64,000 nucleotides of DNA from Chitinivibrio alkaliphilus ACht1. GTDB lineage: Bacteria; Fibrobacterota; Chitinivibrionia; Chitinivibrionales; Chitinivibrionaceae. Below the pieces are notes generated by a model. It did not search any database. It was given only the letters and a program-made list of their open reading frames with translations, and was not told the DNA's origin. The DNA lies in contig NZ_ASJR01000007.1 in NCBI RefSeq assembly GCF_000474745.1, positions 1 through 64,000 on the forward strand. Reading direction: 5' to 3'. Positions 50,619 to 57,761 of the stretch are shown one piece after another; position 1 is the stretch's first letter; each line of letters begins with the position of its first letter. Made by a program: the position numbers and the translations under genes.

Positions 50619-51669
50619 GGTTCTTCTCTGCCTTCCCGTGTTTGTCCTTGGGCAGCTGCGCATTGATTTTGATGAAGCCGTGGGAGATACAACCTTCTAT
50701 AGAACCGTGGCAGAGGACTTTTTTCGGCGTGCTGCAGCAGCAGAAGCAGATGTGGCAGATTCCTATGCCAAGGGAGTCTCTTTTTTGGAACGAAGTGGCT
50801 TTTATGAAATTATAGATACGGTGCGAAGTACTGAGGAATTTTCCGTGCTTCTCACTCCCACCTTTGTGCTGTCGGAGATACAGATACGTGGGGCTGCACC
50901 GCTCTTTGAAAGCGATATTCATTCTGCCTTCTCTCTCAGTGTGGGAGATCGTGTCACTGCGGAAAGTATCCAGGAGGAAGTGGAGTCCCTTGAGGAAGAT
51001 CTGGAAGATCGATTTGGTCTGATTTCCCCACGAGTTGAAAGCCGCATTGTATACGATATGAACGAGGGTACTGCAGATCTTGAGCTGCGTATTTCCCGCG
51101 AAGGAATTTACCGCATAGAAGATATTCGCATTGCGGGAAATGGGCGATTTACGGATCGTCGCCTCCGTACGGTGAGCGGGCTCTGGCGCGATCGCGGGGG
51201 GCATCTCTTTGTTGAGGAGATAGAACAGAAAATTCGTTCTATACAGGAGTATTACTATTCACGGCAGTACCCCGAAGCGCAGGTTGAGTGGGAATATGAT
51301 TTTGATGAGGAGGCGCAACAGATTATCCTCAATATCACCGTTGATGAAGGACCGCGCTATGATATTGACTACTCCGATGTTGCTCCCTTACGTCGAAGAC
51401 GGGTGCGTACCGCCCTTGATTTTTCCAATCAGGGAAATCGGAATGATTTTACCCTCAATCGGGTTCTGTTCAATCTTCGCCGGGAACTTCGCTCCATGGG
51501 ATATCAGTATGGAACGGTTGATTTTGAAGACTCTTTATATACCTCGTCTCGGGGAGATTCCATTCGGGAGATATCCCTTCGTGTTGACACGGTTGAAGCG
51601 CGAACCCGCCTTGAACTCATTCATTTTGAGGGAAATGAATACTTTTCAGAACGCGCTCTGAAAAAATGA
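50590..51669 (+). CDS. Omp85-family protein, N-terminal part (POTRA domains), frameshifted
   Basis: This 359-residue frame starts with GTG at 50590 inside the tamB end (AGGAGGG site; TTG at 50599 is an alternative), has a short signal-like segment (VVKVLLCLPVFVLG), and then POTRA-type repeats (for example VLSEIQIRGAAPLFESDI, YRIEDIRIAGNGRFTDRRL, LELIHFEGNEYFSERAL). It ends at TGA after an A6 run (51661-51666). Removing one A joins it in frame to the next ORF, which continues the POTRA series and the barrel. Together they form a TamA/BamA-like protein of about 915 residues. Confidence 0.8.
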   Translation: MSVLNLNVVKVLLCLPVFVLGQLRIDFDEAVGDTTFYRTVAEDFFRRAAAAEADVADSYAKGVSFLERSGFYEIIDTVRSTEEFSVLLTPTFVLSEIQIRGAAPLFESDIHSAFSLSVGDRVTAESIQEEVESLEEDLEDRFGLISPRVESRIVYDMNEGTADLELRISREGIYRIEDIRIAGNGRFTDRRLRTVSGLWRDRGGHLFVEEIEQKIRSIQEYYYSRQYPEAQVEWEYDFDEEAQQIILNITVDEGPRYDIDYSDVAPLRRRRVRTALDFSNQGNRNDFTLNRVLFNLRRELRSMGYQYGTVDFEDSLYTSSRGDSIREISLRVDTVEARTRLELIHFEGNEYFSERALKK

Positions 51670-51670
51670 G

Positions 51671-53335
51671 ATGGTCCTGACGCCGCATACCCGTAGAATT
51701 GGACGTGATGGCCATGCTGCGTACACTCCCCTTCGTGCAGCCAACGATATGCAGCGTGTACGAGATTTATATCTTCGTGCGGGGTTTTTAGGAGCCGAGG
51801 TAACCTATGAAACAGATTATTTATCGGATACGGTGGTTGCCCTCAGTATTTCCATTCGAGAGGGCGAACAAACGTTCTGTGAGGATGTTCGTATATCGGG
51901 AATAGAGAATGACCAGGAAGAGGCTCTTCTTCCAAGCCCCCCGTGGGATATTTTCCATATCGATACAGTACGTGCATTTCGTGAAACCCTGCTGGAGGAG
52001 TACCGGGAAAAGGGGTATCCCTTTGTTGATGTGGGATATCGGCTCCATTTCAATGAAGATAGCTCTTCCGTATCGGTGGAATATCTTTTAGACCCTGGCG
52101 ATAGCGTTCGCGTACAGGGCATCCATTTTTCTGGAAATTTGAAGACGAACGAGGCATTTCTACGCCGTATCCTCTCTATTGAGGAGGGGGATGTTTTCTC
52201 ACGTCGGGAATTAAGTCGTGGGGTTCGTCGTTTACGGACAATACGCTCCTTTTCTTCTCTCACATATAGTATTGTTGCCTTGGAAGAGGGGTATGAAGAG
52301 GTTGATATTATCTTTTCTCTTACGGAGTCACGCCCCTATAGTGCAGAGGTGGGCCTTGCTTACGATACATATAACTCCTTTAACGTGTCCCTGCGTGCGC
52401 AAAACCGAAACTTTCTACAACGAGATCGACATCTCGGGGTTCGTGGCATGGTCACGGCACAACGGGAGGGAGAGGTGGAACTTACCTTTGCAAACCCCCA
52501 TTTCCTGTATCGCGAGATTCGGGCAACCTCGTCACTCTATGGGACCTATGGACTCCAGGGAAGTGTGGAAAACTATGCAGAAATTGGGAATATTTACAGT
52601 TTGCACTGGCGTATGAGTGAGGCGATTCAGGCAACGGCGTCGCTTTCCTTTGAGGCACGGGATATTCGTAATACAGAGGCGGTACGAAACGCTGCGCAAA
52701 TATCAACTATTCTCTCCTATGATAGTCGAGATAGCTTTCTTCGTCCCCGGCGGGGCTCCTTTTTTCGGGGAGAGGGAGAGCTTTCCTATGGCTTTTCCTA
52801 CGAGGTGGATAATTTTGTACGTGCCCGTGGAGAGTTTCGTACCTACGTAACCCCCGTAAGCGCCTTTACCTTTGCCGGTCGTTTCGGAGGAGGAGTGGTT
52901 CATAATTATACTCCCGCCCTCGATACAATTCAGCGTGACCAGCTCTTAACCTTGGGGGGGGTGAGCAGTGTTCGTGGGTATGAAGAGGGGATGCTCTTTT
53001 TTGAAAGCAGCCACGAGGATGAGTCGGTAGAGCATGCTCCCCTGGGAGGATATGCTGCTCTTTTCGGAAATATTGAAGCTCGTATTCCCCTTATTCTCTC
53101 CTTTGAAGCAAATACCTTTTTTGATGTGGGGCTCCTGACGGATCAAAGCGATTATACCTTTTCCGAGACTCCACGGGGTGCTTATGGTGGAGGGGTACGC
53201 TATGTAAGTCCCCTTGGTGCTATTGGAGTTGTGTATGCCCAGAAGGCCTCCTTTGGCTTTGATGATGAGGTGGCAAAACAATATTACGAAGAAAACCCCG
53301 ATATGTGGATCTTTTCAATTAACTATACGTTCTAA
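51671..53335 (+). CDS. Omp85-family protein, C-terminal part (POTRA plus beta-barrel), frameshifted
   Basis: This 554-residue frame continues the POTRA repeats (ALSISIREGEQTF, VRVQGIHFSGNLKTNEAFL) and then the 16-strand barrel of Omp85 proteins: YDSRDSFLRPRRGSFFRGEG, the loop-6 motif SVRGYEEG, and a C-terminal strand ending in Phe (MWIFSINYTF) as needed for outer-membrane insertion. The internal ATG at 51671 is probably not a true start, since the sequence is in the middle of a POTRA domain. It lies directly downstream of tamB, so a TamA role is likely; BamA cannot be excluded. Confidence 0.85.
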   Translation: MVLTPHTRRIGRDGHAAYTPLRAANDMQRVRDLYLRAGFLGAEVTYETDYLSDTVVALSISIREGEQTFCEDVRISGIENDQEEALLPSPPWDIFHIDTVRAFRETLLEEYREKGYPFVDVGYRLHFNEDSSSVSVEYLLDPGDSVRVQGIHFSGNLKTNEAFLRRILSIEEGDVFSRRELSRGVRRLRTIRSFSSLTYSIVALEEGYEEVDIIFSLTESRPYSAEVGLAYDTYNSFNVSLRAQNRNFLQRDRHLGVRGMVTAQREGEVELTFANPHFLYREIRATSSLYGTYGLQGSVENYAEIGNIYSLHWRMSEAIQATASLSFEARDIRNTEAVRNAAQISTILSYDSRDSFLRPRRGSFFRGEGELSYGFSYEVDNFVRARGEFRTYVTPVSAFTFAGRFGGGVVHNYTPALDTIQRDQLLTLGGVSSVRGYEEGMLFFESSHEDESVEHAPLGGYAALFGNIEARIPLILSFEANTFFDVGLLTDQSDYTFSETPRGAYGGGVRYVSPLGAIGVVYAQKASFGFDDEVAKQYYEENPDMWIFSINYTF

Positions 53336-53378
53336 GCATGGGTAATCCGGTGTATTTGATATTAGTTACATTTAGAGC

Positions 53379-53807
53379 TCATACAAAGAAGTATTTAGTT
53401 ATTAGGAGATTGATAGACTTTGTAGAGAATGTCTCTATATGCCGCACAAACAAGTATGCAACTATTGCTCCGCAAGTTAATGGAGGTAAGATAATAAAGA
53501 AAAACTTACCTGTAAGTGTACTCAAGGCCACATCAGATAATAGTGAACTCAAAATAGCACCTACGCCCAGAGATGAAAAAGCCAGTAATATTTCAGCCCA
53601 AGGAAATGAGCTAGCTCTTAAGGTAGTAAGTTTCTCACGCCATCCTTTAAGCGCGGATGCCCTAATGGTAATCATAAAGTCTTTTTTTTCTTTATCCGGC
53701 GTAACAACCGAATAAGAATGGTTGACCTTCATATCAGCACCATCAGTCTCTGCCTTTATATCGGCAGCAGGAAATGATGTAGTATTGTCAAAATCTTCCG
53801 GATTCAA
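53379..53807 (-). CDS. Small two-helix membrane protein in an integron-like cassette
   Basis: The 142-residue protein has a polar N-terminal half and two predicted transmembrane helices at about 70-91 (AEILLAFSSLGVGAILSSLL) and 101-121 (KFFFIILPPLTCGAIVAYLF). I do not recognise a family. It starts 26 bases after the attC-like site, with an AAGGAG site before the ATG, as expected for the second cassette of an array. No attC-like structure follows its stop; the end lies close to the Omp85 stop on the opposite strand. It may be a truncated cassette. Confidence 0.65.
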   Translation of the reverse strand: MNPEDFDNTTSFPAADIKAETDGADMKVNHSYSVVTPDKEKKDFMITIRASALKGWREKLTTLRASSFPWAEILLAFSSLGVGAILSSLLSDVALSTLTGKFFFIILPPLTCGAIVAYLFVRHIETFSTKSINLLITKYFFV

Positions 53808-53832
53808 TCATTACTCCTTATTTTGCTTGCAA

Positions 53833-53919
53833 CCTTAACGCCTCGCATCACCGGCAACAGAATGCAGAGCCATGATCGAGCGCCGCTTTTTGCTGCGCGA
53901 GTGCATGCAAGTGTTAGCC
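53833..53919 (-). other. attC-like recombination site
   Basis: On the minus strand this 87-base segment starts with GGCTAAC, which contains the stop codon of the upstream gene, and ends in GCGTTAAGG. The ends form an imperfect palindrome: TAACACTTGCATGCAC against the reverse complement TAACGCCTCGCATCAC, with single extra bases as in attC sites. The next gene begins just after it. Confidence 0.6.
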
Positions 53920-54777
53920 ATTTCTTGGTGAAACCCCCTCAACCACTTCAACACCTAGCATATTTCTCAGAGAAATAAGTGACGGAGGCAGTTTTGATTC
54001 CAAGACGAGCAATGCTCGTGCGTTTTGTGGGCGTGACTCCGAGAGCAATACCGCCTCCATGACTGCCCGGTATTTAACACACTGGTAGAGACCCCGTACA
54101 ATGTCGGCTTCAGCTGAAATTAATGATTTAACCTCTGCAGCTACCCAAACTTTGTTATCTCTAAACGAGACGTCCAGACAATCCCCGGACGGTAATGGAT
54201 GTTCTGTGGTGCCTTGTGGGGTATTCGCGCCAAGACTGACGACTTTTGGGTTTTGAGCAACATACGCTTTAAGAGCTTTGTGTTCTTCGCTCTCACCGCC
54301 ACCGAATCCGCCGGCTGATTTTTTCACGAAAGCAGTGAAATCAGACGTTGTTGGTTCAAGATCAAGAGCTTCAAGGACTTCCTGCCATCGGGGGTACAAA
54401 AATACATGCTGTAGTTCTGCTTCAACAATTGCCCTCTTCTGTCGAAGCGGAAGTGATGCAAAGTCCTCTTTCTTCACTAGAAACCAGCCGATACCTTCTC
54501 CGGGCAGCCCCGTGTTCTTGTTGACTACAAGACATTGTATTGGTGGGACCTTGGATTTCCATGCCTTTGAAAGTCGCTCCAGAGACTGCCCAATACTCCC
54601 AAGGACGTAGTTGAGGTTACGTGGGTTGGGCATTCCCAACTCTTCAGCAAGATCGGAGTAAAAGATCGGTGCGCCTGCCTCCGCTTGGCGGACAAGTAAT
54701 GGGAGCGCAGCGCGAGCCCTCGTCTGACATGCTTTATCTCCAGAAATTGGTTCAGAAATTTTGGCAGTGTTCATCAT
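53914..54777 (-). CDS. Probable PD-(D/E)XK nuclease in an integron-like cassette
   Basis: The 287-residue protein has an N-terminal winged-helix-like region (RAALPLLVRQAEAG, YSDLAEELGMPNPRNLNYVL) and NKNTGLPGEGIGWF. A C-terminal restriction-endonuclease-like core follows, with GDCLDVSFRDNKVWVAAEVK (Asp, then Glu-x-Lys) and VRGLYQCVKYRAVM. It probably cuts DNA; target and role are unknown. Related stand-alone proteins are common in accessory DNA. The stop TAA is part of the attC inverse core, and the first ATG (54777, followed by a second ATG) lies 13 bases from the GTTAGCG core, the expected position in a cassette. Its codon use looks less A/T-biased than the neighbours, fitting transfer. Confidence 0.78.
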   Translation of the reverse strand: MMNTAKISEPISGDKACQTRARAALPLLVRQAEAGAPIFYSDLAEELGMPNPRNLNYVLGSIGQSLERLSKAWKSKVPPIQCLVVNKNTGLPGEGIGWFLVKKEDFASLPLRQKRAIVEAELQHVFLYPRWQEVLEALDLEPTTSDFTAFVKKSAGGFGGGESEEHKALKAYVAQNPKVVSLGANTPQGTTEHPLPSGDCLDVSFRDNKVWVAAEVKSLISAEADIVRGLYQCVKYRAVMEAVLLSESRPQNARALLVLESKLPPSLISLRNMLGVEVVEGVSPRNG

Positions 54778-54789
54778 GTACCTCTAATT

Positions 54790-54796
54790 CGCTAAC
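54790..54796 (-). other. Integron-type recombination core (attI/cassette junction)
   Basis: The minus strand reads GTTAGCG, matching the GTTRRRY-type crossover core. Its complement CGCTAAC matches 6 of 7 bases of the inverse core GGCTAAC at the far end of the cassette, as expected if both came from one circular cassette. Confidence 0.5.
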
Positions 54797-54845
54797 ATCC
54801 TGATCATCTAAAGCAAAATATCATCCAACATTTCACCGTGTCAAT

Positions 54846-55132
54846 CTTTTATTATTTTGTACTTCCAATGAATACTTTGAGAAGGCCAATACCATTAAAG
54901 CAATCCCGTTTGATATGCAAAACTGGCATTCATTACTTCTCAAAGATATGGTTCCTCAAGTCAAGCACGCCAATTACCTCAAATGGTGTCGATTCTTCTA
55001 TGACTTTTGTTCAAAATATACCTTCACCCCCTACTAAAAAGAGAGTATCAGCCTTATGGCTCTACTAAATGAGAGAGTCAGAAGACTGGGAGCGAGTTTG
55101 AGAAAGGTGGTTCTCCTGAATCTATACTCCTA
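54846..55132 (+). pseudogene. Remnant of an integron-type tyrosine recombinase N-terminus
   Basis: One plus-strand frame reads KAIPFDMQNWHSLLLKD, then HANYLKWCRFFYDFCSKY and TFTPY, a stop at 55033, and then in the same frame KESISLMALLNERVRRLG and LNLYSYH. This order (Y-L-K-W-x-R-x-F-x-D-F-C-x-K-Y, then a K-E-S-L-type segment and an L-x-L-Y helix end) is that of the N-terminal SAM-like DNA-binding domain of integron-type tyrosine recombinases. The catalytic domain is absent because the sequence meets the end of the PLP-enzyme gene. It has an in-frame stop and no clear start, so it is non-functional. Confidence 0.5.
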
Positions 55133-56608: not shown

Positions 56609-57761
56609 AAAGAGCCTCCTGAATATCCTTTTTGAGATCATCAACCGATTCCAACCCAAGGGAAAGGCGCACCGTTGCAGGGGTGATACCGATGGCAGCC
56701 AACTCTGCTTCAGAAAAAGAGGCATGGCTAATTTTGCCCGGTATCTCTATTCTGCTGTCGGCTGTGCCAAAGGATGCTTTTTCCCCAAAAAGGACCGTTT
56801 TTTCCACCACCCGTTGTGCAGTTTGCGGGGTATCAAAATCAACGGTGAATACCCCAGAGAAATAGCGCATTTGTGTGCGTGCCAGTTCGTGTTGGGGGTG
56901 GGAGGGAAGCCCCGGATAAGTAACCGAGACCACCTCTGGCAGAGTTTCAAGCCATGTGGCAAGGGCGTGAGCGTTTTCTTCATGCAACTTCATGCGCATT
57001 GGCAGGGTGGGCAGCCCCAGGGAAGTAACATAGACATCCATGGGGTTTTGGCTGCGTCCATAGGCGTTTGCCGCATAGGCAAAGGGATCCACCAGATCAT
57101 CCCGCCCCGTAACAAGAACACCCCCCACCACGGAACCGTGACCAGAGACATATTTAGTGGTTGAGAAGAAGGAGATATCCGCCCCCAGAGCAAGGGGCTT
57201 TTGGGAGATAAAGGTTGCCAGGGAATTATCCACCACACAGAGGGTGTTGTGCGCATGGGCCCGTTTTGCAATTGCCGCAATATCAATAATTTTCAAGCCC
57301 GGATTGGTGGGGGTTTCAAAGAGTATAAAGCGCACATCGTTTTGGGACAAGACCTGCTCGACTGCTGTAGTATCGGTACAGTCTACAAAATGAATGGTAA
57401 TGTCAAGGCGCTCACGATAGGATTGCAGCAGGCGATAGGTGCCTCCGTAACAGTCTTGCTCCACCACGATGTGGTCCCCCGTTTTTACAAGGGTCTCCAG
57501 CAATAGAGCCACCGCACCAAGCCCTGTGTGAGTACAATGGGCAGAACGTCCTTCACAGACCTTGGTAAAGAGATTTTCCAGAGAGTGTCTGGTGGGGTTT
57601 CCGCTGCGCGTATAATCATAGGGGGTCTCCCCCTGCTTTTTTAAGTCGAAGGTGGCTGTCTGATAAATGGGCATATGGGTTGCCCCGTGGGGGTCATTTA
57701 TGGCTCCCACTTCTGCGGCATGGGATAATAAAGTTGCTACTGAACAGTGTTGATAGTCCAT
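56601..57761 (-). CDS. Trans-sulfuration PLP enzyme (cystathionine synthase/lyase type)
   Basis: The 386-residue protein is a standard-length member of the MetB/MetC/MetY family. It shows HMPIYQTATF, YTRSGNPTRHSLENL, VEQDCYGGTYRL, the PLP-binding Asp in VVDNSLATF (Asp178) and the PLP lysine Lys203 in FSTTKYVSGHGSVVGG. Family members form or cleave cystathionine or make homocysteine from O-acyl-homoserine; sequence alone does not decide. It is followed by an overlapping longer paralogue, forming a two-gene operon. No SAM or cobalamin riboswitch is evident in the 150 bases upstream. Confidence 0.9.
   Translation of the reverse strand: MDYQHCSVATLLSHAAEVGAINDPHGATHMPIYQTATFDLKKQGETPYDYTRSGNPTRHSLENLFTKVCEGRSAHCTHTGLGAVALLLETLVKTGDHIVVEQDCYGGTYRLLQSYRERLDITIHFVDCTDTTAVEQVLSQNDVRFILFETPTNPGLKIIDIAAIAKRAHAHNTLCVVDNSLATFISQKPLALGADISFFSTTKYVSGHGSVVGGVLVTGRDDLVDPFAYAANAYGRSQNPMDVYVTSLGLPTLPMRMKLHEENAHALATWLETLPEVVSVTYPGLPSHPQHELARTQMRYFSGVFTVDFDTPQTAQRVVEKTVLFGEKASFGTADSRIEIPGKISHASFSEAELAAIGITPATVRLSLGLESVDDLKKDIQEALYG

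Follow-up and report, generated by a model that had tools for sequence, protein, structure and literature searches.

A decayed integron very probably lies between bamA and a cystathionine-lyase-type gene of Chitinivibrio alkaliphilus ACht1, at positions 53835–55118 of the window (the whole stretch of 64,000 nucleotides that was analysed). The preliminary description had proposed a decayed chromosomal integron at this place, and the proposal is now supported by a remnant of an integron integrase (IntI) and by the cores that flank the relatives of the first gene in other genomes. It is solidly supported as a new example of a type of decay already described, not as a new mechanism. The covariance models that were tried miss the locus, and the comparison of cassette boundaries across genomes finds it. 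The loss of chromosomal integrons has rarely been documented, and this genome contains both a dead integron and a living one.

Organization of the locus

The host genome has 2.59 Mb in 99 contigs, and the GC content of the window is 46.2%. The integron remains are enclosed by bamA, which is on the plus strand and ends at 53335, and by the cystathionine-lyase-type gene at 56725–55133 on the minus strand. Between these two genes, the minus strand contains a 287-codon gene followed by a 142-codon open reading frame (ORF), and a piece of intI is found on the plus strand, so that the integrase and the cassette gene diverge around the position of attI (Table 1). The bamA gene itself, which is a single frame of 850–940 codons in relatives, is divided here into two ORFs, the break falling at six consecutive A (window 51655–51675; GAAAAAATGA), the result of either a homopolymer sequencing error or a true frameshift. 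The genus Chitinivibrio stands alone, the gene order after bamA differs in genome G002 and the neighbourhood is not conserved. A search by synteny for an empty site or an intact integrase at bamA found none, with no close relative to compare.

Table 1. Features of the integron remains, in window coordinates
Feature	Position	Strand	Basis
intI remnant	54915..55118	+	26/59 identical to C44 IntI; score 122 vs shuffle maximum 60
Intergenic region, position of attI	54797..54914	.	Placed between divergent intI and the core of the first cassette
Candidate Pc, TTGACA-18-TATTTT with TG	54815..54844	-	Consensus match alone, 10/12
GTTAGCG core, left end of cassette 1, crossover G^TT	54790..54796	-	DNA identity to foreign cassettes starts here
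Cassette 1 gene, 287 aa, intact, predicted PD-(D/E)XK nuclease	53914..54777	-	Relatives, invariant residues, fold model
attC of cassette 1, GGCTAAC ... GTTAAGG, 87 bases	53833..53919	-	Trained attC score; plasmid homology
Second ORF, 142 aa, possible cassette without closing attC	53379..53807	-	Position alone

Boundaries of the first cassette

Relatives of the 287-aa protein were sought in 84,980 genomes. The closest ones, with up to 86% identity, are mainly found in Proteobacteria and Desulfuromonadia-type MAGs, and others at 42–56% identity come from Planctomycetota, Bacteroidota, Lentisphaerae, Chloroflexi-type and cyanobacterial records. The boundaries of the cassette were compared using the DNA of six of the closest loci (L065, L066, L067, L068, L091 and L100), the window being 76–82% identical to cassettes in the arrays of Halomonas, Pseudomonas, Pseudidiomarina and Acidithiobacillus. 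This identity sets in at 54796 for five of the foreign loci and at 54797 for the sixth, which correspond to the G of GTTAGC or to the base before it. At the opposite end, it stops at 53912–53914 in five of the six loci, two bases at most from the end of the GGCTAAC box; in the remaining one, L068, the alignment is lost at 53939, 25 bases sooner. Except for this earlier stop, the homology to other cassettes ends at a GTTRRRY core on one side and at a RYYYAAC core on the other. On this DNA comparison, the GTTAGC core and the GGCTAAC box are taken to be the true boundaries of the cassette, which is the decisive evidence for an integron.

The two ends of the window cassette, GTTAGCG and the inverse core GGCTAAC (53919–53913, minus strand), are complementary at six of seven bases, as the preliminary description had noticed, and the ends of the relatives, GTTAGCCAT...ATGGCTAAC (GTTAGCC), are complementary at all seven, in agreement with the R′/R″ pairing of integron cassettes. 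In the arrays around the relatives, which come from Pseudomonas, Pseudidiomarina, Acidithiobacillus and other bacteria, the number of scored attC sites varies from 2 to 9. Pseudomonas sp. WN033 gives six hits, Pseudidiomarina eight, Acidithiobacillus nine and a Methylomagnum MAG seven. The same cassette gene, with 72–86% amino acid identity to that of the window and with the same GTTAGC and GGCTAAC ends, is present in the arrays of Pseudomonas sp. WN033 (L066), Halomonas olivaria (L091), Pseudidiomarina (L067) and Acidithiobacillus (L100). Unlike the window, these four arrays contain multiple cassettes, have a different attC interior and belong to another phylum. In these relatives the first gene is a cassette with flanking cores and not an ordinary chromosomal gene. 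No attC hits were found near the relatives at L069, L070, L072 and L117, so the gene also exists outside recognisable integrons. The attC interior that accompanies the gene differs between L066/L091, L068/L100 and L065; because these are close relatives, gene and attC seem to have recombined between cassettes.

The integrase remnant and the attI region

The plus-strand frame is open from 54804 to 55034 and is broken by a TAA at 55035. From ATG 54915, the likely start codon of the remnant, to this stop it encodes MQNWHSLLLKDMVPQVKHANYLKWCRFFYDFCSKYTFTPY, and recognisable intI sequence extends past the stop to about 55118. The remnant comprises the N-terminal 60–70 codons, approximately, of an integron integrase with an N-terminal extension, to which it is confined; about 330 codons are gone, including the catalytic domain, and both the α-I2 patch and the catalytic residues fall in the deleted part. 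It aligns with residues 15–77 of the open frame of the intact IntI found on contig C44 of the same genome (see below), 26 of 59 residues being identical, with a score of 122, the highest among 300 shuffles being 60. The score against the G018 integrase is 82 (46 for shuffles), and with just 22–30 the two Xer-type recombinases encoded in this genome are no match. The recombinase remnant that had been suspected on the plus strand is thus closest to IntI.

Pfam and NCBIfam scans assigned no family to the remnant, and a TIGR02249 search gave no match at the window locus, because the matching part is the N-terminal extension, which lies outside the coverage of TIGR02249. An initial scan of genome contigs with the intact IntI as query also gave no match, and it was only by direct comparison with the C44 integrase that the remnant could be recognised. 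The stop at 55035 and the loss of everything past codon 68 or so leave the window intI dead. By itself the stop could be a sequencing error, but the deletion cannot be, and the locus lacks the intact tyrosine recombinase of a complete, functional integron.

The GTTAGCG core is located 119 bp from ATG 54915. The preliminary description had recognized this core correctly, but its distance of about 50 bases was counted from the start of the open frame at 54804 instead of the ATG. The attI site would be located within 54797–54914, a region unrelated to the attI-side region of the C44 integron (alignment score 17, shuffle mean 18). It contains a match to TTGACA-18-TATTTT (54844–54815), a candidate Pc with a good −35 box and an extended −10, which reads into cassette 1 and lies 18 bases ahead of the core; such promoter-like matches are no more numerous in the region than in shuffled sequence. 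The LexA-type box TGCNCN4GTGCA is not in excess in the window or in contig C44.

The attC site of the first cassette

As previously described, an attC-like palindrome contains the stop codon of the first gene, TAA 53916–53914, which sits within GGCTAAC. The palindrome, TAAC-A-CTTGCAT[G]CACT...GGTG-ATGCGAG-GC-GTTA at 53836–53916, has one extrahelical base, in the same column as other attCs, and its R″, L″, L′ and R′ elements agree with an attC in both sequence and pairing. When folded as a single strand, its stability is not above that of shuffles (z +0.2 and +0.8), with values of −6.9 and −2.4 obtained by the same folding for the two full attCs of C44.

A shared structure was derived from 17 integron attCs of the phylum, to which C44 contributed two. 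This structure has strong covariation (score 0.425, against at most 0.19 for slid controls), and the attCs of class 1 integrons align to it without gaps. A score composed of column preferences and pairing was trained on these 17 sites together with seven class 1 sites (24 in total) and applied to the 396 YAAC...GTTR pairs within the 64-kb window. The site at 53833–53919 on the minus strand ranks first of the 396 with a score of 17.1, obtained with a pairing and training scheme that was written after the site had been seen and is therefore not blind, the scored registers being those of other attCs. Its own reverse complement scores 13.5 and the next independent candidate 6.6, and real attCs, with their own locus left out of the training, range from 16.3 to 50.3. 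Scores as high as that of the window site occur in shuffled sequence at 0.25 sites per 64 kb on both strands, and a chance match at the end of the cassette 1 gene would have a probability of about 2 in 10,000.

The check with attC covariance models, suggested in the preliminary description, went against the site: neither of two home-made models, R1 and R2, reports it. R2 finds real attCs well, also outside its training set, but misses the attC of L065, which is found by the trained score; when the covariance runs were made with the filters off, known long-loop attCs were lost too. On the other hand, 80 bp of the window attC are 79% identical to an intergenic stretch of the Nitrosococcus halophilus plasmid pNHAL01 (L147:3001–3079), which separates two same-strand genes and has a further attC-like site 1.6 kb upstream. 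The likeness covers the interior of the window attC and its right part; unlike the window attC, the plasmid stretch comes after another gene and its left end has no GGCTAAC. The window attC is atypical, yet the sequence-plus-pairing score and the plasmid homology support it. Only this attC was found in the window, so the locus does not belong to the CALIN class (at least two attC without intI). Plasmid pNHAL01 contains restriction and HNH endonuclease genes in addition to attC-like intergenic stretches, and possibly carries an unannotated cassette array.

A second integron in the same genome

Contig C44 contains an intact integron integrase (TIGR02249, 287.8 bits for a cut-off of 265), an N-terminally extended protein in an unbroken 410-codon frame. 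It is accompanied by three cassettes with ends matching at seven of seven bases (GTTATGT/ACATAAC, GTTATGT/ACATAAC and GTTAGCT/AGCTAAC), two full attCs and a third one cut by the contig end. The first cassette encodes an AAA_13 protein that matches the PADLOC candidate PDC-S06, and the others encode a PD-(D/E)XK-like protein with a metallo-hydrolase, and a small ORF. The strain is a pure culture (PMC4704652); if this was the source, C44 is not a binning contaminant.

Both integrons share the N-terminally extended IntI, the divergent cassettes, the RYYYAAC...GTTRRRY attCs and the complementary cassette ends. However, the C44 integron is complete and has two strong full attCs, while in the window intI is broken and the single attC is weak, and their attI-side regions are unrelated. 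At this level of sequence identity, the two integrases are too different for a recent duplication; together with the unaligned attI-side regions, this suggests that the window integron is a platform of its own.

Integron integrases extended in this way, by about 95 N-terminal residues with a Y.KW...F..F motif, are widespread in the phylum, being present in 15 of 168 genomes, this one included (L037–L052). Two of these loci, L048 and L049, have arrays of near-identical 138-base attCs, like the repeats of Vibrio superintegrons. No IntI match was found in the four other genomes of the family, and no paper on Fibrobacterota integrons was found in the literature searched. The remnant resembles that of Treponema phagedenis, where the integrase was lost and attC-bounded cassettes were kept; there, several attCs remain and no intI was found, instead of the single attC and N-terminal intI piece of the window (PMC3607928). 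The Treponema case was called the first documented loss of a chromosomal integron in 2013 (PMC3607928).

History of the locus and alternative explanations

An ancestral integron would have stood at the bamA site, with intI on the plus strand, attI, and cassettes reading away on the minus strand. Its integrase would have acted on attC sites in the form of their folded bottom strand and placed circular cassettes into attI. The integrase gene was then destroyed by a premature stop and a deletion, both observed in the broken intI; from what is known of IntI biology, the locus on its own has lost the ability to acquire or rearrange cassettes. The first cassette is left, bounded by the GTTAGC core and the attC and with an intact gene for the predicted nuclease, and a promoter in the former attI region probably continues to drive its expression. 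In principle, the intact C44 integrase might act in trans on the remaining attC.

Two other origins were weighed against a decayed integron. Integrases are known to insert cassettes at secondary sites, and the one encoded on C44 could have placed a lone cassette here at a locus that never held an integron. An intact integrase in the same genome and a recognisable attC on one cassette alone would fit such an event, which is nevertheless very improbable: an IntI remnant is present at a distance of 119 bp from the core, in the divergent arrangement of integrons, its identity to the C44 integrase (26/59) is too low for a recent copy, and the attI-side regions are unrelated. Even less credible, to the point of being practically dismissed, is the idea that both genes are ordinary chromosomal ones, next to a recombinase fragment unrelated to them, the cores and the palindrome being coincidental. 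The silence of the covariance models and the unremarkable stability of the fold are in line with it, but for the first gene it is contradicted by the homology to foreign cassettes, bounded by both cores in five of six loci, and by the location of its relatives in attC arrays; the match of the remnant to IntI, at about twice the shuffle maximum, also argues against it.

Within the decayed integron, the extent of the array depends on the second ORF. Of the two gene cassettes originally proposed, the first stands, owing to the flanking cores in its relatives, and the second lacks support, as it has no closing attC or known relatives. This ORF shares the strand of cassette 1 and starts 26–30 bases after the attC, as expected of a following cassette, and integrons often contain orphan genes. 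No closing attC was found for it before bamA, there being no room for one since 43 bases alone separate its stop from that of bamA. No relatives were detected in plasmids or in the 168 genomes of the phylum, Pfam and NCBIfam scans gave no family, and its GC content (0.38) is lower than that of the window (0.46). An array of one cassette, with the ORF being a native gene or a late insertion, is a serious possibility falling somewhat short of an even chance, and is compatible with a decayed integron. From its position the ORF is possibly a second cassette, perhaps a truncated one. A candidate attC for it at 53320–53401 (crude stem score 28) was rejected, as it overlaps the end of bamA, and it is also absent among the best candidates by the trained score.

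The protein of the first cassette

The closest relatives of the intact 287-aa protein, 85–86% identical, are in other phyla. Most differences between the gene and its close relatives are in the third position of codons, those from L065, for instance, numbering 23, 22 and 122 at positions 1, 2 and 3, respectively; this third-position excess indicates that selection kept the protein over that divergence, the pattern covering the divergence from relatives and not the time after the death of the integron. Residues E192, D199, D202, E215 and K217 do not vary among 25 relatives. The predicted structure (pLDDT 88, pTM 0.84) places a D ... ExK motif (D202, E215 and K217) in an α-β core fold, as in PD-(D/E)XK proteins, and the nearest solved folds include the PD-(D/E)XK proteins NucS/EndoMS, Card1, XisH and SfsA, with weak E values of 0.001–0.03. 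The protein is likely of the PD-(D/E)XK fold class and, from this model, a predicted nuclease. Pfam and NCBIfam scans assigned it no family, and no PADLOC model matches either of the two window genes.

The same nuclease cassette is spread over several phyla, so that its role, and whether useful genes outlast dead integrons, become testable questions. A tentative and rather doubtful picture would have cassette 1 as a member of an undescribed, cassette-borne PD-(D/E)XK family, possibly anti-phage, that crosses phyla and was fixed on the chromosome here by the death of the integron and maintained by selection as a domesticated defence gene. A relative of the gene in Chryseobacterium adjoins Abi genes, and these neighbours give no more than a hint of a role in defence.
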